Positions 15,091-39,713 of a DNA stretch of 48,020 bases are shown here, piece by piece. The notes under the pieces were generated by a model. It ran no database searches. It saw nothing but the letters and a program-made list of their open reading frames with translations, and was not told the DNA's origin. Made by a program: the position numbers and the translations under genes. The DNA comes from Phycisphaerae bacterium (GTDB taxonomy: Bacteria > Planctomycetota > Phycisphaerae > Sedimentisphaerales > Anaerohalosphaeraceae). Numbering within the stretch: position 1 is the first letter of the stretch; each line of letters starts with the position of its first letter. The stretch spans positions 1 through 48,020 of the forward strand of contig JAGPMT010000022.1 in assembly GCA_018052735.1 (NCBI GenBank). Direction: 5' to 3'.

Positions 15091-15135
15091 TTTCGAAACC
15101 GCTGGTTGCACAGATGTATTTCTCAACTGCCGCTG

Positions 15136-16891: not shown

Positions 16892-16930
16892 TCTAAATCC
16901 CAGCCGCTGCTTGGCACTCGCAGCGAGGCG

Positions 16931-17800: not shown

Positions 17801-17827
17801 AAAAACGCCTCCTGAATGCTAACCGTA

Positions 17828-18790: not shown

Positions 18791-18852
18791 TGTTTCAAGT
18801 CCCGGTTTAATATGTTCGGGTTTTTTGAATTTTTAAGCGATAAGCATTGAGA

Positions 18853-18882
18853 AGCCCCACTAAACCAACGGCTTAGTCGGCT
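18853..18882 (-). other. Intercistronic hairpin between two pseudopilin genes
   Basis: AGCC-x2-ACTAA (18853-18863) pairs with TTAGT-x-GGCT (18873-18882) across a 9-nt loop in the 115-bp gap between genes at 18906 and 18790. No T-run follows directly, so it is more likely an mRNA-stability or processing element than a terminator. This gap is the longest inside the G-like gene array. Confidence 0.35.
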
Positions 18883-18905
18883 CCCTAACTCAAAACTTAA
18901 AATGC

Positions 18906-19505: not shown

Positions 19506-19544
19506 ATAGACCCTTTAGCGATGCAAGGGAAAGCATTCCCCCGC

Positions 19545-20501: not shown

Positions 20502-20562
20502 TGTTTTGTCCTTTCTAAAAATAAATGAGTTCGTTTTCTGCAGTCCGGATCTGTCCGTCCTT

Positions 20563-21819: not shown

Positions 21820-21865
21820 TGTCGTGCCCTCCTAAGAAAATAAAGCCGTATACCGATTCATCGCA

Positions 21866-23617
21866 TTAATCCTCTTCCGCCGCAATGGTTTCACGGGACA
21901 CTTCATCAATCGTGGTGATGCCGTCATAGATAGCTGCCAGACCGTTTTCCCGCAGCGTTTTCATCCCTGCCCGCCTTGCTGCTTCCCGCAGAACGGATGT
22001 AGAGGCATTGTTCATCACCAAATCCCGCAGCTCATCATTAAACACCATGATTTCAAAAATGCCTAATCGCCCGCGATAGCCCGACCGGTTGCATTTGTCG
22101 CAGCCCTTGCCGTAGAAGAACCGTTTGCCCCCGACATCTTCCGGACGCAGGTTCAGTTCCATCAGCATCTCTTCGGTGGGTTCATATTCCGTCTTGCAAT
22201 GGGGGCATATTTTACGCACCAGCCGCTGGGCCACAATGCCCTCGATGGTAGCGGTCATCAAGAATGGTTCCAGCCCCAAATCCAGCAGACGGGCAACCGT
22301 GCTGGGGGCATCGTTGGTATGCACGGTGGTGAAAACCAAATGCCCTGTCAGCGAGGCCTGAATAGCAATCTGTGCAGTCTCCAAATCGCGGATCTCACCG
22401 ACCATCACAATATCCGGGTCCTGACGCAGAATGGATCGCAGACAGCGGGCAAATGTCAGACCGATTTCAGGACGTATCTGCACCTGAATCAATCCGTCAA
22501 TGTCATATTCAACCGGGTTTTCGGTCGTAATGATCTTGCTTTCGACATCGTTGAGTTCTTTGAGGGCAGAATAGAGCGTGGTGGTTTTGCCGGAGCCGGT
22601 CGGACCTGTTACAATAATGATGCCGTTGGGCTTTTGAATCAGGCTGCGCATCTTGGCCAAATCCTGCTCGCGCATCCCCAGCATATCCAGCGACAGATTC
22701 ACCTGCGAACGGTCGAGCACGCGAAGCACCACACTTTCGCCAAACATCGTCGGAAGGATGCTCACACGCAGATCAACAGGATTGCCGCCCATCACCAGCG
22801 GGATACGACCGTCCTGCGGCAGACGCCGCTCCGCAATATCCAGATTGGCCATAACCTTGATGCGGCTGCTCAACGCCATAGCGATATACTTGGGCGGCGG
22901 CTCCATCTCGTAGAGCACGCCGTCAATACGATACCGCATTTTATAGGTATCCTCGAACGGTTCAAAATGGATATCCGAGGCCTTGTCTCGTATGGCCTGC
23001 ATCAGCACAAGGTTCAGCAGCTTTATCACCGGCGTTGATTCAGCGGCATCTTTTAAATCATCCAAGTCAATGCTCGCATCGCGGCCGGCAAGCTGGGTAA
23101 GGGTTTTATCGCTTTCTATTTCGCCTATCAGCTCATTGATGCTGCTGTCCTCCTCGGCGTAATATTTATCCAAGTATTTTCGTATAACCTCCTCATCTGC
23201 CACTTTGGCTACAACTTTATAGCCCATCAGCGTGCTTAAATCATCGGTAGCCCGAAAATTGTCGGGACTGTCCATAGCAACAGTCAGCTGATTTCGAGAC
23301 TTGTCAAACTCAATGGGAATGATTTTGTATGTCCGCGCCATTTGGGCAGGAATTTGTTCCAACACTGCTTTTGGTATTTCCATCCCCTCAATGTCTATAT
23401 ATTCCATCCCCCTCTGGCCGGCAAGTGCTATCCGTAGATCACTGGGTTTTATTAAGCCCTGTTCAATAAAGATTTGACCCAGTTTCTGTTTATTTCCCCC
23501 CTGCTTTTGAATTTCAAGACATTTATGTACCTTTTCTCTTGTCAACAGACCCATCTTAATAAGGATGCGTCCAAGTGTTCTTCCTTTTAACTCGTATACT
23601 GGAGGTATTTTGGCCAT
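21866..23617 (-). CDS. GspE/PilB-family assembly ATPase with MshEN-type N-domain
   Basis: A 583-residue hexameric ATPase that powers pseudopilus or pilus assembly at the inner membrane. The N-domain has two 24-residue repeats (residues 14-37 and 45-68) fitting the MshEN pattern [RK]LG-x5-...-G-[LI]-...-L-x2-Q, known in that family to bind c-di-GMP. The ATPase part has Walker A GPTGSGKTTT, an Asp box, Walker B IVMVGEIRDLET and the His box. The zinc site ICPHC...GCDKCNRSGY is intact. A leader hairpin at 23633-23662 touches its Shine-Dalgarno (AAAGGAG, 11 nt before the ATG). It heads the gspE-F-G-H-I-J-K transcription unit. Confidence 0.88.
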   Translation of the reverse strand: MAKIPPVYELKGRTLGRILIKMGLLTREKVHKCLEIQKQGGNKQKLGQIFIEQGLIKPSDLRIALAGQRGMEYIDIEGMEIPKAVLEQIPAQMARTYKIIPIEFDKSRNQLTVAMDSPDNFRATDDLSTLMGYKVVAKVADEEVIRKYLDKYYAEEDSSINELIGEIESDKTLTQLAGRDASIDLDDLKDAAESTPVIKLLNLVLMQAIRDKASDIHFEPFEDTYKMRYRIDGVLYEMEPPPKYIAMALSSRIKVMANLDIAERRLPQDGRIPLVMGGNPVDLRVSILPTMFGESVVLRVLDRSQVNLSLDMLGMREQDLAKMRSLIQKPNGIIIVTGPTGSGKTTTLYSALKELNDVESKIITTENPVEYDIDGLIQVQIRPEIGLTFARCLRSILRQDPDIVMVGEIRDLETAQIAIQASLTGHLVFTTVHTNDAPSTVARLLDLGLEPFLMTATIEGIVAQRLVRKICPHCKTEYEPTEEMLMELNLRPEDVGGKRFFYGKGCDKCNRSGYRGRLGIFEIMVFNDELRDLVMNNASTSVLREAARRAGMKTLRENGLAAIYDGITTIDEVSRETIAAEED

Positions 23618-23632
23618 AATCCATCAAACTCC

Positions 23633-23662
23633 TTTGCCTGATTTTAACTATTTACAGGCAAA
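23633..23662 (-). promoter_or_regulatory. Leader hairpin overlapping the gspE ribosome-binding site
   Basis: TTTGCCTG and CAGGCAAA (on the plus strand 23633-23640 and 23655-23662) form a perfect 8-bp stem with a 14-nt loop in the gspE leader. Three bases of the AAAGGAG Shine-Dalgarno (23629-23635) fall inside the stem. Partial masking of translation is possible. Confidence 0.45.
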
Positions 23663-23679
23663 AATCACTGACCTTATTA

Positions 23680-23707
23680 ATTATACGGCTTTCTGAATAA
23701 AAAACAA
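23680..23707 (-). promoter_or_regulatory. Candidate sigma-70 promoter of the gspE-K operon
   Basis: A perfect TATAAT (minus strand, 23680-23685) has TTGTTT 16 bp upstream (23702-23707), only a half match to -35. It lies in a 293-bp AT-rich gap between pilT and gspE; the rest of this gap (23710-23910) has poly-A/T runs and no gene. Confidence 0.4.
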
Positions 23708-23910
23708 ATTTTTTATAGATTGGACACTTGATATATAATACGTAATCAAATCCTTAAAGATTTCAAATAACGAAATACATCAAAAAAACCTAAAAAAACA
23801 AAAAAAATTAACATTTTTCTGTTTTTTTGTATGGACACATGCCATATAAAACAACGATAAGGTAATTCTATCAGCTCTTCTTTTTATGACAAGAGGATAT
23901 TACAGGTCTT

Positions 23911-25053
23911 TTAATCTGAAGTCTTTAAGACAGGACCATACTCTTCTTCAAGCTTCTTAGCCGCAGCAGAGCCAAGACTTCCCCCAGCTTTCTCTTTTGC
24001 GGCTTTAAGCATTTCACCGGGATTACGGGCCTTATCCAACAGTTCATCCAGATCGATTATCTCTTTATCATAGAGTTCCCATAAATGGTCATCCAGAAGC
24101 TGCATACCAAGTTTCTTGCCGATCTGGATGCTCGATTCGATACGATAGACTTTATTTTCACGAATCAGGTTTGAAATAGCCGGCGTAACAATCATAAACT
24201 CATACGCCGCTACCCGCCCGCGGCCGGTTTTTTTCGGACAAAGCGTCTGGCTTAGTACGGCAATTAAATTGGTACTAAGCTGCACGCGAATCTGCTCCTG
24301 CTGGCTGACTGGGAATGCGTCGATAATACGGTTAATCGTTCCTTGACAGCCAGTCGTGTGCAGAGTTCCGAACACCAAGTGTCCGGTTTCGGCTGCCGTA
24401 ATGGCCGCTTCCATCGTTTCCAAGTCCCGAAGTTCGCCCACCAGAATCACATCGGGGTCTTGACGCAGAGAACGGCGGAGGGCCTCCGCAAATGTTGTAA
24501 CATCCAGACCTACTTCACGCTGATTGATAATGGATTTCTTGTGCTGGTGGTAATATTCGATGGGTTCTTCGACAGTGATGATATGCCTGTCCAGTGTTTC
24601 GTTAATATAATTAATCATCGCCGCCAGAGTGGTCGTTTTACCGCTGCCCGTCGGGCCGGTAACCAAAAACAAACCGCGCGGACGCCGGCACAAAGCCGCG
24701 CAAATATGCGGCAGACCGATTTGTTCCAGACTCAGCAGCTGCGACGGAATCAGACGCAGCACCATTGCAATATTGCCGCGCTGCTTGAACACTGCTGTTC
24801 GGAAACGTCCTGCATCTCCAAAGGCAAATCCATAGTCGGTACTTCCCACTTCCTGCAATTCCTGCTGGTTGCGTTCCGGCGTGATGCTTTTCATCAGCGC
24901 AACCGTATCCTCCGGCTCCAGCACTTTGGTATCCAAAGACCGCAGACGTCCCGAAATACGAAGGACCGGAGGACGCCCCACCGTAATATGGACATCCGAA
25001 CCGCCCATTTTAATGCACGCTTCCAGCAATCGGTCAATATTCAAACTTGCCAT
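23911..25053 (-). CDS. pilT: PilT-family pilus retraction ATPase
   Basis: A 380-residue ATPase that depolymerises type IV pili. The N-terminal GGSDVHITVGRPPVLRISG is the PilT N-domain. Walker A GPTGSGKTTTLAAM, Walker B VILVGELRDLETM, the HTTG His box, and the C-terminal AISNLIRENK (a one-residue variant of the PilT AIRNLIRE motif) are present. There is no zinc-binding CxxC pair, as expected for PilT and unlike the neighbouring GspE/PilB proteins. AGGACAGG precedes the ATG at 25053. It follows the second assembly ATPase by 36 bp and is probably co-transcribed. Its presence argues that some filaments made by this locus retract, unlike a pure type II secretion system. Confidence 0.9.
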   Translation of the reverse strand: MASLNIDRLLEACIKMGGSDVHITVGRPPVLRISGRLRSLDTKVLEPEDTVALMKSITPERNQQELQEVGSTDYGFAFGDAGRFRTAVFKQRGNIAMVLRLIPSQLLSLEQIGLPHICAALCRRPRGLFLVTGPTGSGKTTTLAAMINYINETLDRHIITVEEPIEYYHQHKKSIINQREVGLDVTTFAEALRRSLRQDPDVILVGELRDLETMEAAITAAETGHLVFGTLHTTGCQGTINRIIDAFPVSQQEQIRVQLSTNLIAVLSQTLCPKKTGRGRVAAYEFMIVTPAISNLIRENKVYRIESSIQIGKKLGMQLLDDHLWELYDKEIIDLDELLDKARNPGEMLKAAKEKAGGSLGSAAAKKLEEEYGPVLKTSD

Positions 25054-25089
25054 ATCAAAACACCTGTCCTAAAATACAAAAAATGATTC

Positions 25090-26826
25090 CTATACATCGA
25101 CAACCAGTTCTTCTGCCTGTGCTACGCGCGATACTTCATCCGGCGTTGTAATGCCTTTGAAGACCTTGATTTTGCCGTCTTCCAGCAGCGAACGCATTCC
25201 GGAAGCCAAAGCGGCTTTCCGCAATTCACTGGCGGGCGCACGCGAAAAAGCCAGTTCCCGAAGCTGGTTGTTCATCTCGAGCATTTCAAAAATAGCGATA
25301 CGGCCCTTGTAACCCGTTCCCTGACATCGGGCACAGCCGGCACCTTTATAAATCGGATGCTTATGAATATCCTCCGGAGTAATCCGCAGCAGCCGCAGGT
25401 AATGCGGGTCGGGGGTGGTATCTACGACCTTGCATTCTTTGCAGATGACACGGACAAGACGCTGAGCCATAATCGCCTGAATGGAACTGGCCACAAGGAA
25501 GGGCTTGACCCCCATATCAATCAATCGCGTGATGGCGCTGGGGGCATCGTTGGTGTGCAGGGTACTGAAGACCAAGTGACCGGTCAGAGCGGCCTGAATC
25601 GCAATATCCGCTACCACGCCGTCTCGAATTTCACCAATCAGAATGATATTGGGGGCCTGACGCAGCATAGACCGCAGAATGGCCTCAAATGTCAATCCGA
25701 TTTCCGTTTTCACCTGACATTGATTAATGCCGGAAATATTGTATTCGACGGGGTCTTCTGCTGTAATAATCTTCTTATCCGGCCTGTTTAATTCCTGAAG
25801 TGCTGAATACAGGGTTGTTGTTTTACCGGAACCCGTCGGACCTGTAACAAGAAAGATTCCATTGGGCCGCCGAATGATGCGGATAAACCGCTCGTAGTCA
25901 TCCGGCTCAAAACCGATTGCCTGAATGCCGATATTGACGGATTCGGGCCGCAAAATACGCAGAACCGTACTCTCGCCGTGATAACCCGGCAGACAGGATA
26001 CACGGAAGTCGATATCCTGTCCATCAACCGTCCGCTTAATACGGCCGTCCTGCGGCAGCCGCCGTTCGCCGATATCCATTCCCGACATAATTTTGATGCG
26101 GGCCAGCAGCGGCGCCTGCATATTTTTGGGAATATTGTCCCGTTCCACGCACACACCGTCTATCCGGTATCGGATTCGCACCCGGTCAGCCATGGGCTCG
26201 ATATGAATATCGCTTGCCCGCATCCGAACGGCTTCATCAATAATCAGGTTTGCCAGACGAACGATCGGCCCATCGTCCATTTCGTCTTCGGCCGCCTGTG
26301 CCCGGCGAACCTCGGCTTCTATCGTATGCCCCATAGCCGCCAGTTCCGCGGCTGTCTGGTCAATGCTGCTGCGGTAATCATCTTTGGCAGGTTCATCCGC
26401 TTCTGATTTATTGAGAAAATTTTCAATCTTGGTGGGGCTTGCCAAGCAGCAGCGGATTTCCATATTCAGCCGAAAACGCAGCAAATCCAATGTATCCAAA
26501 TCCATCGGATCTTTGATGACAACTTTTAACTCCCCGTTATTGACTTCGATAGGGATGATTTTATGACGCTTGATGATATCTTCGGGAACTAATTTAGCAA
26601 CATTTGGCGGGATTTGGACATTATCGAGATTTACAAATTCATAACCGAATTGTTTAGCCAGACACTCGTAAATCTGGTCTTCGGTGGCCAGTTTCATCTC
26701 CAGCAGCACTTCCCCCAGCCGTTTATTGGTTTGCTTGCCTTTTTTAATTGCGGCGATTAGATTCTCTTTGCTGACATACCCTTTCTTATAGAGAATTTCG
26801 CCTAAGTGTCTTCTTTCTTTCGACAT
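25090..26826 (-). CDS. Second GspE/PilB-family assembly ATPase with MshEN-type N-domain
   Basis: A 578-residue assembly ATPase. N-terminal repeats at residues 7-30 and 36-59 follow the MshEN 24-residue pattern; the second is the better match (RLGEVLL...L...L...Q) although its Gly at position 10 is Lys. Walker A GPTGSGKTTT, Walker B IILIGEIRD and a zinc site (ICKEC...GCARCQGTGY) are intact. Together with PilT directly downstream it forms a PilB-PilT pair, so this one may drive a retractile pilus while the 21866-23617 ATPase serves the pseudopilin operon; that split is inferred. A good sigma-70 promoter lies at 26874-26902. Start ATG at 26826 with a weak GTGAG ribosome site. Confidence 0.88.
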   Translation of the reverse strand: MSKERRHLGEILYKKGYVSKENLIAAIKKGKQTNKRLGEVLLEMKLATEDQIYECLAKQFGYEFVNLDNVQIPPNVAKLVPEDIIKRHKIIPIEVNNGELKVVIKDPMDLDTLDLLRFRLNMEIRCCLASPTKIENFLNKSEADEPAKDDYRSSIDQTAAELAAMGHTIEAEVRRAQAAEDEMDDGPIVRLANLIIDEAVRMRASDIHIEPMADRVRIRYRIDGVCVERDNIPKNMQAPLLARIKIMSGMDIGERRLPQDGRIKRTVDGQDIDFRVSCLPGYHGESTVLRILRPESVNIGIQAIGFEPDDYERFIRIIRRPNGIFLVTGPTGSGKTTTLYSALQELNRPDKKIITAEDPVEYNISGINQCQVKTEIGLTFEAILRSMLRQAPNIILIGEIRDGVVADIAIQAALTGHLVFSTLHTNDAPSAITRLIDMGVKPFLVASSIQAIMAQRLVRVICKECKVVDTTPDPHYLRLLRITPEDIHKHPIYKGAGCARCQGTGYKGRIAIFEMLEMNNQLRELAFSRAPASELRKAALASGMRSLLEDGKIKVFKGITTPDEVSRVAQAEELVVDV

Positions 26827-28295: not shown

Positions 28296-30605
28296 TTATA
28301 CTGTCTGCTGGACTTGGACCTGCTGATATTTCTGATAAGAACGATAGACCTCCCGGAAATATCCGCCTTTGCGGCTCTTGGCTCCCATCAAGACGGCTCC
28401 GGCAACATTGGCATTTATATCCTTCAGTTCCCGCAGGATCCGCAGCGCTGCCCCGCGACGGGTAACAGCAGCATTCAGCACCACCAATGCCGCGTCGGCC
28501 TGTGCCGCCAGCGTCTTGGCATCGCTGACCAGCATCGCAGGTCCATCAATGATGATATAATCAAACTGGGATCTGCAGTAATCCAGCAGCGTTTTCATCC
28601 GCTCACTGGTGAACAGTTCAGCCGGATTGGCCGGCAGCGGCCCGCTGTCAATCAGGTACAACCCGGTGATGCCGCTGTCCCGAATAATGCGATCCTCGGA
28701 ACATTGTCCCATCAGGTAATTGCTCAGGCCGAAATCCGAAAATCCCGATGAACCATTGGCCTGTGAGCGGGGGAATAACCGCGCTGTGGACGGCCGGCGG
28801 AAATTGGCATCCAGCAGCAGAACCCGGCGGCCTTCCATCAGCAGGGTGCTGGCCAGATTGACGGCAACGGTTGTTTTTCCGTCTCCGGCCTGTCCGCTGG
28901 TCACGCACAATACCTTGTGCATTGCTCCACCCGGCCCCAACAGACGCAAATTGGTGCGCAGCTGCCGATAGCCCTCGCTCATCATCGAATAAGGGGCTTG
29001 ACGAACCACATGATACAAATCAACCCCTTCTGCCTCATCATCATCGCTGACATGCCAAATCATCCCCATCAGCGGCACTCTCAGATGCCGCACCACATCG
29101 CTGGGCGTGCGGACCAAATCATTGGCCAGCTCAATCAGGAAAGCCAGTCCTAAACCGGCCAGCAGGCCCAGAATAAAGCCGCCCGGGAAGAACAGCTCCC
29201 AGCGCGGGAAACTTTTTTCCCGGGGATCTGTTGCGCCGTAGGGGGACGACAGCTTGCTCAGACGCGGATTGTCATGCTGGGCATTTTTCTTCTCAATCAG
29301 GGTGTTCATATCCTCCAGAAGCTTCTGATTTTCTTCCCGCTGCTGCTCATACCGCGCATATTCAGCACGAATTCGGTCGATTTCTTTGTATTCGGCACGG
29401 GCCGCATTGAGCTGCTGGGTTGCAGTCTCCAACTGCGAAGTCAGCGCTGTCATTGTATCCCGTGCATTGATCAGATTGGACTGGCGAATCAATTCACCAA
29501 TCATCTTCTGACGGGCATCATACTCATCGTACATCTTTTTAAGAGCCGCCTGCGTCTGTTTGACAAGACGATGCTCATCGCCGAAACGGGCCCGCTGCTG
29601 ATCCAGCAGCGGTTCCATTGCCGCTATATTGCTTCTCATCTGGCGGGCTATCGGATCATTTTCAACTTCCTGCCTGACCACTTCATCAAAATCATATGCC
29701 TTGGCCCGCACATCCAAGGTTGCAATGATACTTTCCAGCCGCGATTTTTCGCTGTCATATTCACTATATCGGTTTTCCAAATCAGCCAGCTTCTCATCCA
29801 TATAATCCCGGAAAGACTGATTATCCCTAAGATTCAGGCGGGCAAACCGCGTGCCGGAACGGATGGATTCCAGACTGGCTTCAATCTGATTCAGTTTGGT
29901 CTGTATCTGGTCACGCTGGTTTTTAAGCTGAGCCAGTTCCTGCTTGAGCGTGCTTTGAGCCAGTTCCTGCTGCTGCCGCATAAAAATTCGGACCATTTCA
30001 TCGACAATTGTTTTAGCATCCCGGGCATTGCGGCACTTCATGGAAACCAGCAGATAGTTGTTGTCGCGGGGGGCGGTTGCACTGAGATTATCCTGCAAAT
30101 CCTTCAAGGCCTCGCGGATAGCTTTTTCAACATCGCCGACAATCTGGCCCTGACTGTCGATCTTGGCAAAACTCTTGAACCAGTCTGTTTCCCGGACTCT
30201 CGGCTGCTCCAGCAAGGTCAGCAGCATATTCTGCTGCTGAATCATCGATGCCTTGGTGAAGCGAAACGCATAGTAGAGATCCTTCTGCACCTGAATGCTG
30301 GCTATCTGCATCGGATCCATATCCACCGGCGGGTCCACATCGATCGCACGAACAGACGTATAGCGCGGATAATAACGGTCGCACAAATACCACAGTCCGC
30401 CGCCGATAACCGTGCCCAGAATCGTCATCAGTATAATCATCCACAGATGCCGCCGCAGAATGCCCAAAATCTCCCGCGGGGTCAATTCCATACCGCCGCC
30501 GGCCCCGCCGGCAGGTCTGGCCGGCCCCTGCGGGGGGGTCATCGGGGGACGGGACGATGCCGGCCCGGTCATCATATTGATTGTCCGCTGGATTGCATTA
30601 TCCAT
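28296..30605 (-). CDS. Wzz/Wzc-type polysaccharide co-polymerase with BY-kinase domain
   Basis: A 769-residue inner-membrane protein that sets chain length and controls export of exopolysaccharide. After a Pro/Gly-rich N-terminus come a first membrane helix (53-73), a long periplasmic part with coiled coil (about 210-445), a second helix (471-491) and a cytoplasmic tyrosine autokinase. The kinase shows Walker A GQAGDGKTT (571-579), Walker A' RRVLLLDANFRRP (593-605) and Walker B YIIIDGP (683-689). The C-terminus carries four tyrosines (749, 754, 757, 760), the usual autophosphorylation cluster. It is the last gene of the operon and has GGGAG before its ATG. Confidence 0.88.
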   Translation of the reverse strand: MDNAIQRTINMMTGPASSRPPMTPPQGPARPAGGAGGGMELTPREILGILRRHLWMIILMTILGTVIGGGLWYLCDRYYPRYTSVRAIDVDPPVDMDPMQIASIQVQKDLYYAFRFTKASMIQQQNMLLTLLEQPRVRETDWFKSFAKIDSQGQIVGDVEKAIREALKDLQDNLSATAPRDNNYLLVSMKCRNARDAKTIVDEMVRIFMRQQQELAQSTLKQELAQLKNQRDQIQTKLNQIEASLESIRSGTRFARLNLRDNQSFRDYMDEKLADLENRYSEYDSEKSRLESIIATLDVRAKAYDFDEVVRQEVENDPIARQMRSNIAAMEPLLDQQRARFGDEHRLVKQTQAALKKMYDEYDARQKMIGELIRQSNLINARDTMTALTSQLETATQQLNAARAEYKEIDRIRAEYARYEQQREENQKLLEDMNTLIEKKNAQHDNPRLSKLSSPYGATDPREKSFPRWELFFPGGFILGLLAGLGLAFLIELANDLVRTPSDVVRHLRVPLMGMIWHVSDDDEAEGVDLYHVVRQAPYSMMSEGYRQLRTNLRLLGPGGAMHKVLCVTSGQAGDGKTTVAVNLASTLLMEGRRVLLLDANFRRPSTARLFPRSQANGSSGFSDFGLSNYLMGQCSEDRIIRDSGITGLYLIDSGPLPANPAELFTSERMKTLLDYCRSQFDYIIIDGPAMLVSDAKTLAAQADAALVVLNAAVTRRGAALRILRELKDINANVAGAVLMGAKSRKGGYFREVYRSYQKYQQVQVQQTV

Positions 30606-30634
30606 ATCAAGTCTCCCACTACAAAACCGTTTTA

Positions 30635-33600
30635 TTATTGCTGACGCAGCCGCTCAATCGCCTTCTGAAGCTGCTGTTTTTCCTTATCCGGCATTTCCTG
30701 TGCAGAATCAAGGGCTTTTTGATAGGTCTCCATCGCCTGCTGCGGCTTATTGAGCCCTTCCTGTGCCATTGCCAGATGCTTATAAACATCCCACGGAACC
30801 GGCTGGCCGGAAACATCATAAATCTGAATCGCCCGAAGCAGATTCTGTTCTGCCGTGTCATACTGACCAACTTTGCACTGAACAAATGCATAGGTATCCA
30901 GAAAAATCGGATTTCCCGGATCCTGCTGATGAGCGCTGCGTGCATAATTCAGCGCTTTTTCAAGCTGCTGGTCGTTGTCAGCCAGCAGGTAGGCCATGTT
31001 GTTCAGCAGTGACGAATTGTTCGGCTGAATCTGAAGCATTTTCTCCAGCATGTCCGCCGCGCGTTCAAAATAGCTGCTGTCTGCCGTTTTCGCATAGGCC
31101 ATGATCAGCAGATTGACCTTCTTGAGGTTATACAGGAACAGCTGCGGATTGTCGGGCGCAATCAAACCGATGCACTGGTCTGCATACTCAATCGCCTTAT
31201 TGTAAGCACCCTTTTCCTGCGCCAACCGGCAGGCCAACAGCAGGGCCGGCAGCGATTTGGCATCAGCCGCCAGCGTTTTCGTTACCCAGCCGTCCAGCAC
31301 TTCTTCTCCGGCCGCCGGCCGAACTTTCTGCAGAATCAGCTCCTGCATAGTCTCGCTGGTCTGGGCCTTGTCCAGCGCTTTATAAAAGCTGTCAATCGCC
31401 TTGTCCTTCTGCCCCTGCTGGCTCTGAACCAGTCCCAGATACATATACGCCACCGGTGCCCCCGGCGTATCAATCAAACCGCCGGCAAAAGTGATAAGTT
31501 TATCATATTGCTTGGCTGCATACAAGACTTCTAAATATCCCTGTACCAACTCGAGATTCGGCTGGTTTTGGGCACTGGCCAGCTTCCAAGCCGACAGCAG
31601 CAATTCCTCAGCGCGGGTGTAATTTTTCTGGCTGAGGTAGTACATCCCCGCCCGGTAATGCCAAAACGCACTGTTGGGATATTTTTCCAAAGTCCCCTGA
31701 TAAAACTTGTCCAAATCCGCAGCACGGTTATTCTTCTGATACAGCGCTTCCAGCATCAGCCGCACCTGAATCGGGGCTTTCGGGTCATCCAGTGCGGAGG
31801 CCAGTTCTCCAATGGCAGCGGTTATCTGCCGGGTCTCGTTATAGACATTGGCCAGCTCCATCCGAACCATCGGATTATCCTGAAGGCCTTTGCTCCGCTG
31901 CAGGTCCTCAATGGCTTTCTGCTGCTGATTCATCAGCCGATACAGCCGGCCGCGCAGCCGCCATGCTCCCGCATTGGCGGTATCCTTTTCCAGATACAGA
32001 TTTGTCAGCGAAAGCGCCTCATCCAGCCGGCCATGCCCCATCGCTGTCCATGCTTTTATCAGAAGAATGGTAATGTCATCCGGATACCTCTCCTGGAAAC
32101 TGGGGATTCTGCTTTCCGCCTCGGCAGTAAAAGCATTGTCCAGATATTTCTGCATAATCCACAATTCGCCGTCTTTGGTTTGCTCCAGCTTGACCAGCGC
32201 ATCAAGATACTCTTTGACCTGCTGACGCTTGCCGGCGCCCTCGGAGGCGATCACAAGTCCCTGATACAGCAGTACATCATCGGGATGTTTCGCCAGAAGG
32301 TCTTTCAAGATCGCCTCGGCCTGTTCAAACTGCCCGCCGCGAAGGTAATACTTCCACAGCAGATTCTGGTCGCCTTTGAGCAAATCCAGCGCTTTATCGC
32401 TCTGCTGGGTCAGCCGGAGGTAGTCGGCATACGCCTGCCGAATGGAATCATTGTCCGGCTCAAGGTCTATCGCCTGCTGATAGGCCTTGCCTGCCAGCTC
32501 AACCAATCCGGTCCGCTTGGCCGTATCCCATTCCGACTGCGCCATGCGAAGGGCCATATTGCCCAGCATCAGGGCATTGGAGGCCGTCGGAACAGTCTGC
32601 AGCAGCCGCTGACGAATCTGCAAAGCCCGATCCGGCGCCTGCTGCTGGATGCTTTCGGCATAGAGGCCCTGCAGCTGCCAGTCGGCCGGATTAAGCAGCA
32701 TCGCCAGCGTCAGCGCCTGTTCGGCTTCGCTGCGCTGTTCCGGCGTCACTTTTGTCCCCAGTTCATTGTTCCGCGCAAACAGCAGCATCGCCAGATTCCG
32801 GGCATACGCAGCATGTTGGGGATTCATCTGAACCGCCTGCCGGGCGTTCTGAATAGCCGCTGTGCTGTCCTGCATCTGGTGCTGAACCTGACTTTTCAGA
32901 TAATACAAATAACTGGACAGCGGACGCAGGGTCAGGCACTCATCCAGACGGCGCAGCGCTTGGGGATAATTTTCCTTGAGCATCTCCACCCGTGCAGCCG
33001 CCAGCCCGCCTTCGCATCCGTCGGCATTTTTCGAACGAATCATCTGGAGCAGGCCTTCTGCCTTGGCACTATCCTTCTGGTCAACGGCGATATCAAATTG
33101 AGCATTCAGAATCTCCGGATCATTGGCCGCATCCGGCCCGGCATCCTGCATCAGAGCCGCCATCGCCTTTTCATAGTCTCCCTGTGCCCGATAGAGGGCT
33201 GACCGCAGCAGGGCTTTCTGCCGGGGATTCTGAATCCGGTCCGCGGCCTGCTCCTGCAGCTGCGCTGTCGGCTGCGCTGCCGGATCGTCCTGAGACGCCC
33301 GCAGGCGAAGCAGCTGCAAACCGTAAGCATCCGGATTGGCTGCCAGATAAATATCCAGAAAGGCAGCCGCCTGCGGGGCCTGCTTGTTTTGAATCATATC
33401 CATACAAATAACATTCAACAGCTGGGGATCCATCTGAGCCGGCTCCAGCTGAAGCGCCTGCTGCAAAACCGTATTCCGCTCAGCCCGCAGGGTATCGAGC
33501 TTCTTGAGCTGTTCGGCTGTGGGCTCCTTGGGCGGCTGTGCCTGCCGGCCTTCGGCAATAGAACCGGCAATCTGGGCGATTTGGGCTGTCAGCACTTCCA

Positions 33601-35362
33601 GCCGCAGCTGAAGCACTGGGGCAGACGTCCCATCCAGCTGGGCCAGCAGACGGCGGGCCTGATCAAATTTGCCCAGTGCCGCCGCCGCACGAATCGCCAG
33701 CATTTGGCTCTGTCCATTGGCTCCATAGCGGTTTTGATACTCCTCCACCATCCGTTCTGTATTGTTCCACGCACGCAGCTGGCCCAGAACCTCGGCATAA
33801 TCCAGAATCAGCTTGGGCTTCTGGAGCACATAGCGGCTGTTGTTGTAGATTGCCCACTGCAGAAATTCGCGGCGCATACCCGGTTCGCCGCTGTCTTTCA
33901 TCAAATCGGCAAGCACCGCACAGACCAGCGGATCGGCATTGGAAAATTCCTGCGGCCTGTCCAGCGCCCGCCACTGCTCATAAGCCTTATGCAGAAGACG
34001 CAGTCCCTTGTCTTTCTGGTCCTTGGCCAGAGCCAGCAGACCCTGATACTTCTGCGCGGTGGGACTATCCGATGTCCCCAGAATCCCGCTGATAACAGCA
34101 ACGCACGATTCGGCTTTGGCTGTCAGCTCATCGGCTTCAGCTGTTCTGCCTTCCCGCCGGGCTGTCAGCGCATGGTCAAGATACAGATCCGCCAAAAACG
34201 CATTCAGCGTAAACCGGTAATTGAGATTGCGTCCCTGCAGCGGTCCCGTCACGTCCTGCACGGCATCCATCGACAGCGCATCCTCGGCAATCTGCCGGGC
34301 ATCTGCCAATGCCGCCGCATCCGCGAAGGCATTGGCCTTGCGGTACATAAGCCGTGCCAGACGGAGGACATACTCAAAATTATCGGGCTTCATCTCGTGT
34401 GCCCTGCGAACCGCTTCAATGGCCTGATTGATTTCCGCCTGCGCCGACTGCCTGCCCGGGAATTCATACGCGATCGAGACAACCAGCCAGAACACATCGT
34501 TGGGCTGAATCTGCGTCCGGTATGTTTCAATTTCAGCCCGGAATGCTTCCAGCCCATTCGGATCGCCGACGGTTGACTGCAGCCGATAGCGAAGCAGATT
34601 GGCCACCGCCGCCGATTTGTCATCGGCTCGCTCGACGCCTGCCTGCAGATGCTCCAAGGCCTTCTGCCGTGCATTTTCGGCAGCCCGAATCACACCGGAT
34701 TGAGTATCCAGTTCGCCCTGAAGGCCGGCCGCTTCAGCCAGCAGCAGATACACCTCCGCATTGCCGGGCTCTTTTTCCTTCAGCTGCTCGAGGATGGTCA
34801 TGCAGTCACTCAGATGCTGGCGGCGATCGGTGGTTTCGCCCCGCTGGGCAATGTACAGCAGCGATTTGGCGTGGGCCGTCAAAAGGGTCGTGTCCGGCTC
34901 GGCTTGGCCGGCTTTGAGCGTATCCAGCAGCTTGGTGGTGTTTTCCAGAACATTCTGCCACGCCCGTGCGTCGCCGGCTTCGGCGGCCTGATAGTAAAAG
35001 TCCAGCAGCTTGCGGCGGGCTTGGACATTGTTTGTATCAATCGATACAATCTTGCTCCAGCAGCCCATCGCCTTATTCCATTCCGCCTGATGCTGGGCAT
35101 TGTGAATCAAATGGAAATCCGCCAGTTCAAACAGCCGTTCAATCTTATAGGCATCATCTTTGCCGTATGCAAAAGCCCGGCCCAGCTGCGACTCCGCTTT
35201 TTTATAATCCCCCGCCTCCAGTGCCTGACGCGCTTGGGCCAGTGCCCGGTCCGGATCGCGGTGGACTTTCAGGTACACTACGCCCCCTGCCAGAACACAC
35301 ACAATTCCGACCAGCAGAATGCCGACGACAAGTGCTACTTTTTTATTCAGTTTTTTTGCCAT
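30635..35362 (-). CDS. Giant membrane-anchored TPR protein of the exosortase operon (1575 residues)
   Basis: A single N-terminal membrane helix (about residues 8-31) anchors a ~1540-residue periplasmic chain made almost wholly of tetratricopeptide-like helical pairs, e.g. DRALAQARQALEAGDYKKAE near the start and PQQAMETYQKALDSAQ near the end. There is no lipobox and no catalytic motif. TPR proteins (PrsT type) occur in PEP-CTERM/exosortase exopolysaccharide loci, where they are thought to scaffold the export machinery; this one is larger than the ~900 residues usual for PrsT, and calling it the counterpart is inference from position. AGAGGA precedes the ATG at 35362; it starts 45 bp after the EpsI-like gene and ends 29 bp before the Wzz/BY-kinase gene. 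Confidence 0.82.
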   Translation of the reverse strand: MAKKLNKKVALVVGILLVGIVCVLAGGVVYLKVHRDPDRALAQARQALEAGDYKKAESQLGRAFAYGKDDAYKIERLFELADFHLIHNAQHQAEWNKAMGCWSKIVSIDTNNVQARRKLLDFYYQAAEAGDARAWQNVLENTTKLLDTLKAGQAEPDTTLLTAHAKSLLYIAQRGETTDRRQHLSDCMTILEQLKEKEPGNAEVYLLLAEAAGLQGELDTQSGVIRAAENARQKALEHLQAGVERADDKSAAVANLLRYRLQSTVGDPNGLEAFRAEIETYRTQIQPNDVFWLVVSIAYEFPGRQSAQAEINQAIEAVRRAHEMKPDNFEYVLRLARLMYRKANAFADAAALADARQIAEDALSMDAVQDVTGPLQGRNLNYRFTLNAFLADLYLDHALTARREGRTAEADELTAKAESCVAVISGILGTSDSPTAQKYQGLLALAKDQKDKGLRLLHKAYEQWRALDRPQEFSNADPLVCAVLADLMKDSGEPGMRREFLQWAIYNNSRYVLQKPKLILDYAEVLGQLRAWNNTERMVEEYQNRYGANGQSQMLAIRAAAALGKFDQARRLLAQLDGTSAPVLQLRLEVLTAQIAQIAGSIAEGRQAQPPKEPTAEQLKKLDTLRAERNTVLQQALQLEPAQMDPQLLNVICMDMIQNKQAPQAAAFLDIYLAANPDAYGLQLLRLRASQDDPAAQPTAQLQEQAADRIQNPRQKALLRSALYRAQGDYEKAMAALMQDAGPDAANDPEILNAQFDIAVDQKDSAKAEGLLQMIRSKNADGCEGGLAAARVEMLKENYPQALRRLDECLTLRPLSSYLYYLKSQVQHQMQDSTAAIQNARQAVQMNPQHAAYARNLAMLLFARNNELGTKVTPEQRSEAEQALTLAMLLNPADWQLQGLYAESIQQQAPDRALQIRQRLLQTVPTASNALMLGNMALRMAQSEWDTAKRTGLVELAGKAYQQAIDLEPDNDSIRQAYADYLRLTQQSDKALDLLKGDQNLLWKYYLRGGQFEQAEAILKDLLAKHPDDVLLYQGLVIASEGAGKRQQVKEYLDALVKLEQTKDGELWIMQKYLDNAFTAEAESRIPSFQERYPDDITILLIKAWTAMGHGRLDEALSLTNLYLEKDTANAGAWRLRGRLYRLMNQQQKAIEDLQRSKGLQDNPMVRMELANVYNETRQITAAIGELASALDDPKAPIQVRLMLEALYQKNNRAADLDKFYQGTLEKYPNSAFWHYRAGMYYLSQKNYTRAEELLLSAWKLASAQNQPNLELVQGYLEVLYAAKQYDKLITFAGGLIDTPGAPVAYMYLGLVQSQQGQKDKAIDSFYKALDKAQTSETMQELILQKVRPAAGEEVLDGWVTKTLAADAKSLPALLLACRLAQEKGAYNKAIEYADQCIGLIAPDNPQLFLYNLKKVNLLIMAYAKTADSSYFERAADMLEKMLQIQPNNSSLLNNMAYLLADNDQQLEKALNYARSAHQQDPGNPIFLDTYAFVQCKVGQYDTAEQNLLRAIQIYDVSGQPVPWDVYKHLAMAQEGLNKPQQAMETYQKALDSAQEMPDKEKQQLQKAIERLRQQ

Positions 35363-35407
35363 ACAGTCCTCTATTCGAACGACCCATCGCGGTTACTGTC
35401 TTTGCCG

Positions 35408-36184
35408 CTACTGCGGCTTTGCATTGGCGGCTTCCCAGTCCGGCCAATGATTGGCTTCCAGCTCCGGCAGCAGCCGGGCCAGCAGTCTGCGGCTGGCTTC
35501 CAGCGTCTGCTCCTGACTGGGATAAACGACCCCGAAGGCATCGGCGCCGTAAAATTTCCATTCCACCTTGCAGAAATACGAATACTTGCTGAACCAGTTG
35601 CTGCCCAGAACCAGCCGTGTCTGCGTCCGGTCGCCGCAGTACCGGCCGTTGGCGTGAAAGAAATACTGCACGGAAAAATTGTCTTCTTTGGCTGCCATGG
35701 TGCCGGCCCGGCCGAAAATGACATACTGAAATGCAAGTTTTCGCTCCCCTTGCGGCAGCGGAATATCGAGAGTCAGCGTCTGGCCGTCTTTGCGCTCATT
35801 GCCGCCCCCGACATAGCACTCATCCGGCACATGCGGCACCATATCCGGATTGCCGGTATAATACGTAATAAACAGCGAGCAGAAACGCAGCGGACTGCCC
35901 GCCGGCGCTTCGGGATCTTCCAAAATCCACTGCAGATACTCTTCCGTGCCGAGACTTTCCAGCACATCCCGGTTGAGAATCTGCTCCTTCTGCTTGACCA
36001 CATACGGCCGCAGCGCCTGTTCGTTCATCTCTGCCAGCGGATGCCGCAGTTCGATGCGCTGCTTGGTCATCTGCACGCCCAGCACGCGGATAATGGTTTC
36101 CTTGGCGGCTGCAGCCGTCAGCAGAAGAGCCGTACAGACTACAAACGACGGCTTCAAATAAGATTGTAAAGCAGATGAGGCCAC
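35408..36184 (-). CDS. EpsI-family exosortase-associated protein
   Basis: A 258-residue protein with an N-terminal membrane or signal segment (about residues 8-27) and an EpsI-like domain. The motif TYYTGNPDMVPHVPDECYVGGG (split here: HVPDEC at 118-123, then YVGGG) fits the conserved His/Cys and Gly-rich region of the family, found fused to or beside exosortases. Its biochemical role is not established. It starts with GTG immediately after the exosortase stop codon (zero-base gap), so translation is very likely coupled. In XrtA systems the domain is often fused to the exosortase; here it is separate. Confidence 0.78.
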   Translation of the reverse strand: MASSALQSYLKPSFVVCTALLLTAAAAKETIIRVLGVQMTKQRIELRHPLAEMNEQALRPYVVKQKEQILNRDVLESLGTEEYLQWILEDPEAPAGSPLRFCSLFITYYTGNPDMVPHVPDECYVGGGNERKDGQTLTLDIPLPQGERKLAFQYVIFGRAGTMAAKEDNFSVQYFFHANGRYCGDRTQTRLVLGSNWFSKYSYFCKVEWKFYGADAFGVVYPSQEQTLEASRRLLARLLPELEANHWPDWEAANAKPQ

Positions 36185-37168
36185 TTAGGTTTCCTGTGAT
36201 TGCCGGGGTACGGACTTGCGAACAATAATATCTTCCTGCGTCTGTTCTTCCTCAATAAACAGGTTGCTCATCAGCCAAGCCAATCCCCCGTAGAGCGCAA
36301 ATGCCAGCGGCAGCATCAGCATTCCGAGCATATCATGGTAAATGCCCTGCGCATACTTGGGATTGCCCAGCACATAAATAAATCCTGTAACAGTAACGCG
36401 CACAATATTGCAGAGAATGGCTATCGGCACGGTGCTGGCCAGCAGCACCAACCGCTGCCAGATCGGACGCCAATGCAGGTATGCCATCGCCACTCCCAGC
36501 GCCACAAACGCCATCAGCAGCCGCATCCCGCTGCACGCATCCGCCACATCCAGCGCCGGCTCAAGGGCTTTGCCCTTGTACAGCACATCAATCACCGAGC
36601 CGTGCACTTCGGCCTCCAGCTGCGGTACAAGGTTCAGGATAACCGTGGACGCCTGCGCTGCCAGCTGACGCATCGGATTGGTCAGCTGAAAATACAGACG
36701 CTGCGGCAGCGGCACCGCAAAGAACAAAAATGCCACCGGAAGCCATGTATAACGCAGCAGCTTCCATCCTCCCAAAAACAGCACCACCGCTCCGATGACT
36801 GCAATCATCGTCAGCGGCTTGCCGTACATAAACTTCAGCATCACAAGGTTGATCGGATGCAGCGCCAGCAGAAACAGCAGTGCTCCCAGCCCTGCAAACC
36901 AGCTGGGACGGACCTGTTGAATCGCCAGAATCTCTTCTTTGTTTTGATGGAGAAAATACAGACTGAACAGCGGAATCAAAAATCCATGCGACCAGCTCGG
37001 ATTGGAAATCCACTGCAGCACCAGACCGTTAATCTCTTCGCGGAAAATCCACCAAATCAGCAGGGCTATAATTGCTGCGCGGATATACAGATGGATACCC
37101 AAATCCAGCCAGCTGGGCTGTTTTTCGGTCCTGTCTGCAGCCACCAATATGTCTTGTTTCTGATTCAT
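36185..37168 (-). CDS. Exosortase (EpsH/Xrt family transpeptidase)
   Basis: A 327-residue polytopic inner-membrane protein with about eight helices. The catalytic triad of exosortases is visible: Cys212 in DACSGMRLLMAF, Arg257 in NIVRVTVTGF and His278 in YHDMLGMLMLPLAF. Exosortases cleave C-terminal PEP-CTERM-like sorting signals and are thought to transfer the protein to an acceptor at the cell surface. I placed the start at ATG 37168, 20 bp after the wza-like stop; a longer frame to 37396 would overlap wza and adds a non-membrane sequence. No substrate with a PEP-CTERM-like tail is encoded in the window. The specific Xrt subfamily is not assigned. Confidence 0.88.
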   Translation of the reverse strand: MNQKQDILVAADRTEKQPSWLDLGIHLYIRAAIIALLIWWIFREEINGLVLQWISNPSWSHGFLIPLFSLYFLHQNKEEILAIQQVRPSWFAGLGALLFLLALHPINLVMLKFMYGKPLTMIAVIGAVVLFLGGWKLLRYTWLPVAFLFFAVPLPQRLYFQLTNPMRQLAAQASTVILNLVPQLEAEVHGSVIDVLYKGKALEPALDVADACSGMRLLMAFVALGVAMAYLHWRPIWQRLVLLASTVPIAILCNIVRVTVTGFIYVLGNPKYAQGIYHDMLGMLMLPLAFALYGGLAWLMSNLFIEEEQTQEDIIVRKSVPRQSQET

Positions 37169-37187
37169 TCTGCGCCGTCCGCCAAGC

Positions 37188-38726
37188 TTAGAACGGAAGC
37201 GGATCTCCCAAATAGTCGCGGTCTGCAAAGTTGCGGTCATAAATAAATCCGAAGCCGTACGTGGCGCGGAATGCGTTTCGCAGAACAGCCAGCCAGCGGC
37301 TGGTCCCATGCGTGCCGACATTGATGTAGTCATACGGTTTGATGAAAAAGTCCGGCTGCAGCCCTTGAGCAATCTTCTGCAGATCCACCAGAACAATTTC
37401 TTCCTGCATCAGGCCGGCCTTGTTTTTGCCGATGCGCCGAACAACTTCAACCTTCTGGGGCCATGCAATCGCATTCAGGCCGCCGGCCGTGGCAATCGCC
37501 TGCTTGAGCGTGATAGGACGGCCGGTAATCGAGTAGGCATTCGGGGCATTGACATTGCCGGCCACCCAGAACTCTCCCACCAAATCCCGCGGCACGGTAA
37601 TCCGGTCTCCCGGACGAATAACAATATTATACCGCGGATCTCCGGATTCCAGACGATCCCGCGGAATCTGAATAACACGGGTTACGGTGCTGCTTCGGCC
37701 GACCTCCGAAAGGCCGAAATCCGACGGTATCTGCCGCTGGGGTTTCGTCTGGGCGTACTGCTCCGGCCGGAGCAGCTCCGGCTGCTGCGGCGATTGCTCC
37801 GAAGGCCCTTCCACTTCTATCGGCTTCCACTTGCCGTCTTCAAAAACCCATTCGATCCGTTTGGATGTCTGCGGCGGCAGCAGAGCTTCAGGGCTTTTCA
37901 CATCGGTTACTCCCTGCACCGGTTCAATGCCTTCCGGTGCTGCCAATGTCTCCAATTCGCCTTGCGTTGCCATCTCGGCCGACGTCACAAACAAGCCGCC
38001 GGGCCGGCGGGTCTCGCTGGGCGTAATCAGCTCCAGCATCTCATCCTCTTTGCCAGGAGCCGGCTGCTGGGGCTTGGAATCCGTGCCTGCGGCGCCGGGC
38101 TCAACATCCTGCTGCCTGACATCGCGCGACACATAAATATAGCTGACATTGAAGTCCCCCATTCCGCCTGCCAGCGCTATTGCGTCCGTCAGGCGAATCG
38201 GATACCGCGGCAGCGGATACCGGGCCGATTGAGCAACTCCCTGCCCGATAATCGAAAAATACCGCTGCTGGGAGGCCATCAGGGTGACGGTTACAGACGG
38301 ATTTTTAAGAATACTGGGCGACAGAATACTGGCAATTTCCCGTTCCAGCTGCGCTTCGGTCAGACCAGCCGCCGTAACAAGGCCCACATCCGGAATCGAA
38401 AGGCGGCCCGTCTCGGTGACTATATAATCATTTACATACGTCTGCCCTTCCTGATACAGCTCAAAAATGCTGATGCGCACAATATCACCGGGTCCGAAAA
38501 CATAGTCCGATTCATATGCGATGAGGTCTTCCGGCCGGGGTTCTTCGGCGCCTTCATACGTCGGGGCAGGTTCATCAGCCACACCCAGCGTATCCAGGAT
38601 CACATTCACCGTCGGAGTGGGTTCAAATCGGCCTAACTGCGTCGGATCCAATATATCATTATTGCATCCTCCAAGACCCATAAGCAATGACACACCCGCA
38701 AGCAGAAAAAAACTTTGTCTTCTCAT
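37188..38726 (-). CDS. Wza-like polysaccharide export lipoprotein (Poly_export + SLBB)
   Basis: A 512-residue outer-membrane polysaccharide export protein. The signal ends in lipobox GLGGC (Cys21). GPGDIVRISIFELYQ opens the Poly_export domain (about residues 75-150). A first SLBB-like region (FSIIGQGVAQSARYPLP, about 157-200) and a second (EFWVAGNVNAPNAYSITG, about 390-440) follow. Between them is an unusual Pro/Glu/Gln-rich insertion of about 150 residues. It heads the operon wza-exosortase-EpsI-TPR-Wzz. It starts with ATG at 38726; the ribosome site is weak, and a perfect 7-bp palindrome (38761-38777) lies 35 bp upstream. Confidence 0.87.
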   Translation of the reverse strand: MRRQSFFLLAGVSLLMGLGGCNNDILDPTQLGRFEPTPTVNVILDTLGVADEPAPTYEGAEEPRPEDLIAYESDYVFGPGDIVRISIFELYQEGQTYVNDYIVTETGRLSIPDVGLVTAAGLTEAQLEREIASILSPSILKNPSVTVTLMASQQRYFSIIGQGVAQSARYPLPRYPIRLTDAIALAGGMGDFNVSYIYVSRDVRQQDVEPGAAGTDSKPQQPAPGKEDEMLELITPSETRRPGGLFVTSAEMATQGELETLAAPEGIEPVQGVTDVKSPEALLPPQTSKRIEWVFEDGKWKPIEVEGPSEQSPQQPELLRPEQYAQTKPQRQIPSDFGLSEVGRSSTVTRVIQIPRDRLESGDPRYNIVIRPGDRITVPRDLVGEFWVAGNVNAPNAYSITGRPITLKQAIATAGGLNAIAWPQKVEVVRRIGKNKAGLMQEEIVLVDLQKIAQGLQPDFFIKPYDYINVGTHGTSRWLAVLRNAFRATYGFGFIYDRNFADRDYLGDPLPF

Positions 38727-38987: not shown

Positions 38988-39713
38988 TCACTCGGCTTGC
39001 TGAATTTTACCTGCTGCAAGCAGTTGGGCCGACTGAACAGTTTTATAATCAAATTGAATCATCAGCTGCTTGGATGCGATTCCGCTGCGCGTATCAAACA
39101 CGTCAATAGTTCTCGGGATTCTCTTGTCTAAATCCTTGTTATAACGGAGGTTATAACTTCTCAACAGCCACGACAAGCCGCTGTCGGCATCGTCTAGCCC
39201 AACCAGCTCGATGCGGTTGGTATCCAGCGACCGCAGCAGCGTAATGACAACCGGCGGATTCGTCCAATTTGTCTGAAGCGGCTGGTACCATTGCCCTTCC
39301 AGCTTGATAGGTTCTCCAGAAGAAAGCGATGCGGTATCCAGCAAGTCGCCGCCGGCACAAAAACTATAGAAAAGGGCTGCAGCCAGCTGGGCATTGCAGA
39401 AAGAAACAGGACTGTCCGATAAAACCGCAGTTTTCGGCTTTATCTCACTGTATTGATTCTTATTCAGCGTAAATTGAAGCTGACCAGCCGGTTCGAGAGC
39501 CTTCATTTGAAAATAACCGGTAAGGGGATCGAAGCTGTGCTGCTGGCTGGTTATATAGACCGCCCCATTGGTCTTGTAATAACGGGCAATACAGCTGGCT
39601 GATATTTGTGTCCTTATTTCGGTGGAATCTTGGGAAATCGGTGCCGATTGCCGGCTGCATCCGAGAAAGAGTATGCATAAACAAACTGCACTGCTGATTG
39701 TCGAGCGTATCAT
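38988..39713 (-). CDS. Orphan lipoprotein of unknown function
   Basis: A 241-residue protein I do not recognise. ATG at 39713 gives a lipoprotein signal, MIRSTISSAVCLCILFLGC, with Cys19 as the likely lipidated residue; AGAGGA lies 8 nt upstream. In-frame starts further upstream would put a hydrophilic stretch before the signal. The mature part has beta-rich segments (GAVYITSQQHSFDPLTGYFQ, then QLQFTLNKNQYSE), a C-terminal MIQFDYKTVQSAQLL and conserved-looking Trp residues. This could be a LolA/outer-membrane-lipoprotein-carrier-like fold, but no motif proves it. It lies between nifJ and the exopolysaccharide operon. Confidence 0.65.
   Translation of the reverse strand: MIRSTISSAVCLCILFLGCSRQSAPISQDSTEIRTQISASCIARYYKTNGAVYITSQQHSFDPLTGYFQMKALEPAGQLQFTLNKNQYSEIKPKTAVLSDSPVSFCNAQLAAALFYSFCAGGDLLDTASLSSGEPIKLEGQWYQPLQTNWTNPPVVITLLRSLDTNRIELVGLDDADSGLSWLLRSYNLRYNKDLDKRIPRTIDVFDTRSGIASKQLMIQFDYKTVQSAQLLAAGKIQQAE

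Follow-up and report, generated by a model that had tools for sequence, protein, structure and literature searches.

A glycosyltransferase-free exosortase operon as the probable sorting-and-export half of a split surface-polysaccharide pathway in a Phycisphaerae bacterium

Contig JAGPMT010000022.1 of a Phycisphaerae bacterium (Sedimentisphaerales; assembly GCA_018052735.1) was analyzed over its full length of 48,020 nucleotides (the window), with emphasis on a compact exosortase operon on its minus strand. In order of transcription, the five genes of this operon encode a wza-type outer-membrane polysaccharide export lipoprotein with Poly_export and SLBB domains (37188..38726; PF02563, 1.5e-18; SLBB_2, 1.5e-16), an exosortase of 327 amino acids (36185..37168; PF09721, 1.5e-54), a free-standing EpsI-like protein with one N-terminal membrane helix and an HxPxxC motif (35408..36184), a giant PrsT-like tetratricopeptide repeat (TPR) protein of 1575 amino acids that matches Pfam TPR families (30635..35362), and a Wzc-like protein in which a Wzz chain-length domain is fused to a BY-kinase with a Tyr-rich C-terminus (28296..30605; TIGR01007, 130.5 bits, exceeding the cut-off of 108.05; PF02706, 4.8e-6). 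Intergenic gaps from wza to wzc measured 19, 0, 45, and 29 bases. Scores of the wza product against TIGR03028 (94.7 bits; cut-off 262.65) and of the TPR protein against the PrsT model TIGR02917 (126.9 bits; cut-off 312.2) remained below the respective cut-offs. The best start of the exosortase was the ATG at 37168; an alternative open reading frame (ORF) of 403 amino acids, starting at 37396, overlaps wza. Sequence and folding placed an intrinsic terminator directly after wzc (28270-28243, minus strand), with a 9-pair stem, a 10-nt loop, and a T run. Folding of its hairpin (-17.1 kcal/mol, z -4.55) was equalled by none of 200 shuffles, and a simple terminator scan overlooked it because of the length of its loop. 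The five genes, their tight spacing, and the terminator were all confirmed where the initial annotation of this DNA had placed them.

The exosortase exceeded the cut-off of the general exosortase model TIGR02602 (126.1 versus 105.55 bits). None of the named NCBIfam subtypes (XrtA, B, C, D, V, W, and the cyanoexosortases) was reached at its curated cut-off, the best subtype scores being 158.3 of 400 bits for XrtD (TIGR04152), 150.1 of 425 for XrtW (NF038142), and 137.7 of 208 for XrtA. Cys212, Arg257, and His278, which we take to be the catalytic residues, were invariant in all 14 aligned exosortases of the window type, and the Cys/Arg/His set was retained in 33 of 33 exosortases aligned across three types. 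For the EpsI-like protein, no EpsI model of NCBIfam or Pfam was matched at E 0.01, and its predicted structure gave no clear fold match in the PDB (Foldseek, best E 0.014; VIA, best Z 6.5). A weak match (E 0.0015) was obtained with the C-terminal half only (positions 274-433) of the XrtD model TIGR04152. His118, Pro120, and Cys123 of its HxPxxC motif were invariant in 14 of 14 sequences and likewise in all 36 rows of a larger alignment, for which 43 sequences had been chosen and seven were omitted (one row had a stop). Conservation of this motif, together with the position of the gene, favours a putative identity as EpsI.

Pfam scans of the 32 window proteins yielded no glycosyltransferase, flippase, or polymerase, which upheld what had been claimed for these 48 kb. 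The broader claim that sugar-building genes are lacking stood for glycosyltransferases near the operon but not for the entire window, which contains an SDR sugar-nucleotide dehydratase/epimerase-type gene at 9269-10225, 18 kb from the operon. Similarly, the absence of any substrate applied to the contig, on which the PEP-CTERM family PF07589 had no match, but was ruled out for the genome. When the genome was scanned for PEP-CTERM-like tails, as proposed with the initial annotation, 35 PF07589 matches were found at E-values up to 10, of which 31 were over the curated cut-off and four below it, all of them scattered on other contigs. Among 30 translated PEP-CTERM ORFs (for one of which, L027, the wrong strand was translated), nearly all carried a canonical tail with a PEPATL-type motif, a hydrophobic helix, and an R/K end, and most had an N-terminal signal peptide. 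The puzzle of an exosortase apparently devoid of substrates was thereby answered.

Start regions of the PEP-CTERM genes showed a recurrent context. Among the 22 of 31 genes that were usable, GGAGG was present in 14 (6 of 33 other genes) and AAAG, GAAG, or AACG stood right before the ATG in 16 (2 of 33 other genes); as these motifs were chosen by eye, they may mark only secreted proteins. Two PEP-CTERM genes on contig C38 (L225:8791-11876 and 14444-17528) each followed genes for an extracytoplasmic function (ECF) sigma factor and a FecR-like protein, one of these sigma factors belonging to the Rhodopirellula/Verrucomicrobium family. These neighbours hint at dedicated regulators for individual substrates.

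The window comprises the entire contig C70 of a 2.88 Mb genome of 70 contigs that is 96% complete, so that sequence beyond it could not be read directly. Genome-wide, the wza product of the operon was the only PF02563 match, its Wzz/BY-kinase the only Wzz match, and its exosortase the only exosortase. One Wzx-type flippase (PF01943, MOP flippase) was located on contig C38, one Wzy_C on C29, and two PF02397 initiating sugar transferases on C8 and C64, while 13 GT4 matches, 10 of them over cut-off, were distributed over several other contigs. Wza, Wzc, Wzx, Wzy, and an initiating transferase, which make up a Wzx/Wzy-dependent export set, were thus all present in the genome. The flippase locus, which is cut by the contig end, also encoded a large protein without a family and an amidotransferase fragment matching the XrtA-system amidotransferase model below cut-off. 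At the end of C8, the sugar transferase was accompanied by a pyridoxal phosphate-dependent decarboxylase that matched an 'exosortase A system-associated' model below cut-off and by a sugar-nucleotide epimerase (L034:16372-17310). Because the only Wza and the only Wzz lie in the operon and Wzx, Wzy, and the initiating transferases lie elsewhere, one pathway split between loci is the simpler reading: parts of one Wzx/Wzy pathway are present in the genome, apart from the export core.

Conservation of the operon was analyzed in the best 80 of 173 loci with EpsI relatives in the collection searched (748 ORFs, 1.25 Mb). The nearest EpsI relatives were mostly from metagenome-assembled genomes of Phycisphaerae, Sedimentisphaerales, and Planctomycetota. 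The full order wza-xrt-epsI-TPR-wzc was visible in 49 of the 80 loci, in a count that read plus-strand genes only and scored opposite-strand ORF calls as a lacking gene, and adjacent gene pairs along the operon occurred in 65, 70, 73, and 53 loci. Loci with fewer than five genes were attributable to contig ends or losses by the ORF caller. Conservation of the five-gene order, which had been proposed as a check on the operon, was thereby corroborated. In phmmer comparisons with 16 queries, all from the genome of the window, ORFs resembling a glycosyltransferase, initiating transferase, Wzy, or Wzx were found in none of the 80 loci, although queries of this kind can miss remote or other glycosyltransferase families. 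The result was the same for two sets of 20 loci from labelled genomes of the order (0 of 20 each), which share several contigs with the 80 and are not independent of them. A second exosortase type differed in this respect, as the same queries matched ORFs in 14 of the 15 loci examined. An initial comparison was partly circular, as some of its queries came from three loci of that second type, and its 'Wzx' query was presumably MviN/MurJ-like; the true flippase was used in the own-genome repeat reported here.

The usual siting of an exosortase among genes for exopolysaccharide (EPS) biosynthesis, with glycosyltransferases, was thus found neither in these relatives nor in the window. Within one and the same order, the second exosortase type does sit among sugar genes, which provides an internal contrast. 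In 40 of the 51 loci in which the next gene was visible, an SDR epimerase directly followed wzc. It was absent from this position in the closest relatives and in the window, and its counterpart in the genome of the window is the epimerase on C8, beside the initiating sugar transferase. An operon without any sugar-building gene is therefore the local extreme of a pattern in which most relatives have an epimerase after wzc. This displaced epimerase is what would be expected if the operon were an ordinary EPS locus in mid-decay, whose sugar genes were recently lost or moved without functional meaning. That explanation is very unlikely and largely refuted, since none of the 80 loci, whose EpsI identities reach as low as about 40%, departs from the glycosyltransferase-free arrangement. 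The arrangement is old and stable. Of the initial proposal that the operon is a dedicated core serving scattered substrates, the scattered substrates and the conserved gene order were borne out, while 'dedicated' export was not borne out, given that the only Wza and Wzz lie here and that Wzx, Wzy, and initiating transferases lie elsewhere in the genome.

The second exosortase type (640-740 amino acids, here called the long type; L101:8685-10676 and 14 similar loci, L087-L100) merits separate description. In this type, an N-terminal sugar nucleotidyltransferase and hexapeptide region is fused to a complete exosortase domain in which Cys, Arg, and His are kept. This domain make-up was derived from a Pfam scan of one protein, and most others visibly share the N-terminal motif. 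Fusion of exosortase with EpsI and loss of the catalytic Cys were both considered for the long type and rejected, the former on the basis of the Pfam scan and the latter by alignment. The long exosortase gene is usually followed by genes for a Wzc-like protein, a hexapeptide-sugar transferase, and a TPR protein, and dozens of long exosortase ORFs occurred among 161 genomes of the order. No published report of an exosortase-nucleotidyltransferase fusion was found in the literature searched, whose coverage excluded most subscription journals. For a third exosortase type (L103:9597-12353, also L106), four loci were inspected, and two of them encode, beside the exosortase, small proteins that end in VPVPxA-type tails, which suggests a separate tag.

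Across the 161 genomes of the order, PF09721 was detected in 153, PEP-CTERM in 159, and the window-type EpsI in 142 (including a weak match of 4.8e-7 in G081); among 66 good genomes, exosortase, PEP-CTERM, and EpsI were each present in 65. The only two genomes without a PEP-CTERM match, G022 and G078, both lacked the window-type EpsI. G022 (94% complete) had no match to exosortase, EpsI, or PEP-CTERM and is a natural loss of the whole system; the sole exosortase of G078 (86% complete) was of the long type. In eight genomes (G000, G010, G118, G143, G146, G147, G152, and G158), a window-type exosortase was the only one, and these contained 22 to 49 PEP-CTERM matches. This phyletic profile supports, without proving, a role of the operon as the PEP-CTERM sortase. 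Failure of the window exosortase to reach any named NCBIfam Xrt subtype could be taken to mean that it is not a PEP-CTERM sortase and that the 31 substrates depend on some other machinery. This is highly improbable in view of the lack of a second exosortase in a genome that is 96% complete, of the PEP-CTERM complement in single-exosortase relatives, and of the joint loss of exosortase and PEP-CTERM in G022.

Upstream of the operon, 261 bases from wza and on the same strand, lies a gene for a lipoprotein with a lipobox and a predicted LolA/LolB fold (38988..39713). Its AlphaFold model (pLDDT 86.4) gave LolA/LolB matches at 1.8e-6 to 4.7e-4 in Foldseek (LolA3, 1.8e-6; LolB, 3.7e-5). In VIA, the top rows of the LolA/LolB superfamily had Z-scores of 10.2-12.7, including 3bk5 (Z 12.7; root-mean-square deviation 4.1 over 176) and E. 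coli LolB 1iwm (Z 11.2; 3.7 over 145); rows outside the superfamily were mostly at or below 7.9, with the exception of the DUF1329 protein 4z48 (11.8). No Pfam family was assigned to the lipoprotein at E 0.01, including any LolA/LolB sequence model, and a search with PF03548 gave a weak match at a different locus, on C8. A relative of the lipoprotein was found upstream in 31 of 52 testable loci and in none of the 19 loci with exosortases of other types, a count that is partly circular as 22 of the 31 loci were used to build the model. Distances to wza were about 220-690 bases, except in five of the 31 loci, where the distance exceeded 2 kb with an intervening ORF, so that the genes may keep their neighbourhood without acting together. 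Should the lipoprotein have a role in the system, its predicted fold would suggest a lipid-tailed product delivered to the outer membrane, with the lipoprotein as a candidate outer-membrane partner for exosortase-processed proteins.

This neighbour also bears on a different view of the operon, as a dedicated protein conveyor in which Wza/Wzc would carry lipid- or glycan-tailed PEP-CTERM proteins instead of free polysaccharide, to be received by the LolB-like lipoprotein. The frequent occurrence of the LolA/LolB-fold gene upstream and the lack of a glycosyltransferase-like gene near the operon in all 80 loci are consistent with such a conveyor, and exit of PEP-CTERM proteins via a Wza-type protein has been proposed for Nostoc (PMC12188702). 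The single Wzx and single Wzy of the genome would then be left without a Wza or Wzz, as the genome encodes none besides those of the operon, the LolB-like gene may represent mere synteny, and Pfam sequence search did not place it in the LolB family; the conveyor is therefore doubtful. Its fuller form, in which operon and LolB-like lipoprotein together would constitute a self-contained surface-protein conveyor that adds a lipid or short glycolipid tail and delivers to the outer leaflet, is improbable. If a conveyor were nonetheless at work, a conserved 'polysaccharide' exporter would be a protein exporter, and sugar genes would not be kept near the operon because the exporter carries protein.

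Taken together, the operon is likely to be the sorting-and-export half of a split system that combines PEP-CTERM/exosortase sorting with a Wzx/Wzy-type surface polysaccharide pathway. In the mechanism proposed for this split pathway, PEP-CTERM proteins from about 31 unlinked genes would enter the inner membrane via Sec, and their C-terminal helix would keep them in it. Aided by EpsI, the exosortase (Cys-Arg-His) would cleave before the helix and link the new C-terminus to an acceptor. With the large TPR protein as a putative scaffold, Wza and the Wzz/BY-kinase would build and gate an envelope-spanning exit that delivers polymer, processed protein, or both to the surface. Synthesis of the sugar chain would rest with the unlinked genes (single Wzx, single Wzy, PF02397 initiators, and scattered GT4s), the products of which would meet those of the operon at the protein level only. 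Gene content and order, their conservation, single-copy status, the substrates, and the Cys/Arg/His residues were observed directly. Cleavage, the nature of the acceptor, and carriage of the product by Wza are inferred, and the split may allow sugar genes to be exchanged over time around an unchanged core.

Several observations weigh against this interpretation. The operon is tied to polysaccharide by protein family only, which makes passage of polymer through Wza putative. The Wzx locus on C38 and one initiator locus on C8 lie at contig ends, so that linkage to something unseen is possible. For 25 of the 31 substrate genes, 250 bases of upstream sequence were available, and these contained no convincing sigma-54 site (best scores 9-13 of 15, shuffles averaging about 10). 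Moreover, EpsI was absent from 19 of the 161 genomes, most of them incomplete assemblies, and 17 of these 19 still had PEP-CTERM matches. As a consequence, the co-loss profile draws mainly on G022 and G078. Two genomes without EpsI, G075 (92% complete, 6% contamination, three PEP-CTERM matches) and G011 (89%, 23 matches), are hard to dismiss.

Beyond these genes, the operon is flanked downstream by CinA and a secretion gene cluster, and upstream by the lipoprotein gene and pyruvate:ferredoxin oxidoreductase (POR). The downstream type II secretion/type IV pilus cluster (15136-26826) encodes pseudopilins with an N-methyl motif, T2SSF, and T2SSE-family ATPases. Such a cluster was not noticed beside the operon in relatives, for which no search aimed at it was made.

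Among named exosortases, XrtD and XrtW (TIGR04152 and NF038142) are the best-scoring models for the window protein, far below their cut-offs. The putative EpsI of the window weakly matches the region of the XrtD model located C-terminal to its exosortase portion, but is encoded by a separate gene. Exosortases of the window type form a group that spans the order and stays below the cut-off of every named NCBIfam subtype. The original description of the PEP-CTERM/EpsH system (Haft et al., 2006, PMC1569441) places epsH nearly always among EPS biosynthesis genes and presents scattered, unlinked substrates as the rule. Exosortase, a putative EpsI, a PrsT-like TPR protein, EPS export and chain-length proteins, and many unlinked substrates are shared with that system as described there, whereas the window operon keeps the export genes without a glycosyltransferase. 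Sigma-54-dependent control of substrates by PrsK/PrsR has been described for Proteobacteria; in the present genome no convincing site was found, and PrsK/PrsR were not searched for.

The closest parallel is crtB (cyanoexosortase B) of Nostoc punctiforme (2025, PMC12188702). According to that report, a single exosortase and a Wza-type protein likewise occur at a Wzx/Wzy-type export locus, other polysaccharide loci, consisting mostly of glycosyltransferases, are dispersed, and PEP-CTERM proteins are numerous. Differences are the exosortase subtype and the position of the Wzx/Wzy system, which lies at that locus in Nostoc and elsewhere in the genome of the window. Transit of PEP-CTERM proteins together with polymer through Wza is proposed in the same text, in which the route of exosortase-processed proteins across the outer membrane is described as unresolved. 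Scattered substrates are already known, and for the dispersal of sugar genes this cyanobacterium sets a precedent. No description of the planctomycete operon was found in the literature searched, subject to the coverage given above. New relative to these systems are a five-gene unit that lacks glycosyltransferases, is conserved throughout a planctomycete order, occurs as a single copy in this genome, and has epimerase and LolB-like neighbours, as well as its contrast with a second exosortase type sited among sugar genes. Because this tight, single-copy operon, present in many planctomycetes, separates sorting and export from polymer synthesis, removing one half or the other would allow the roles of Wza in protein and polymer transport to be told apart.

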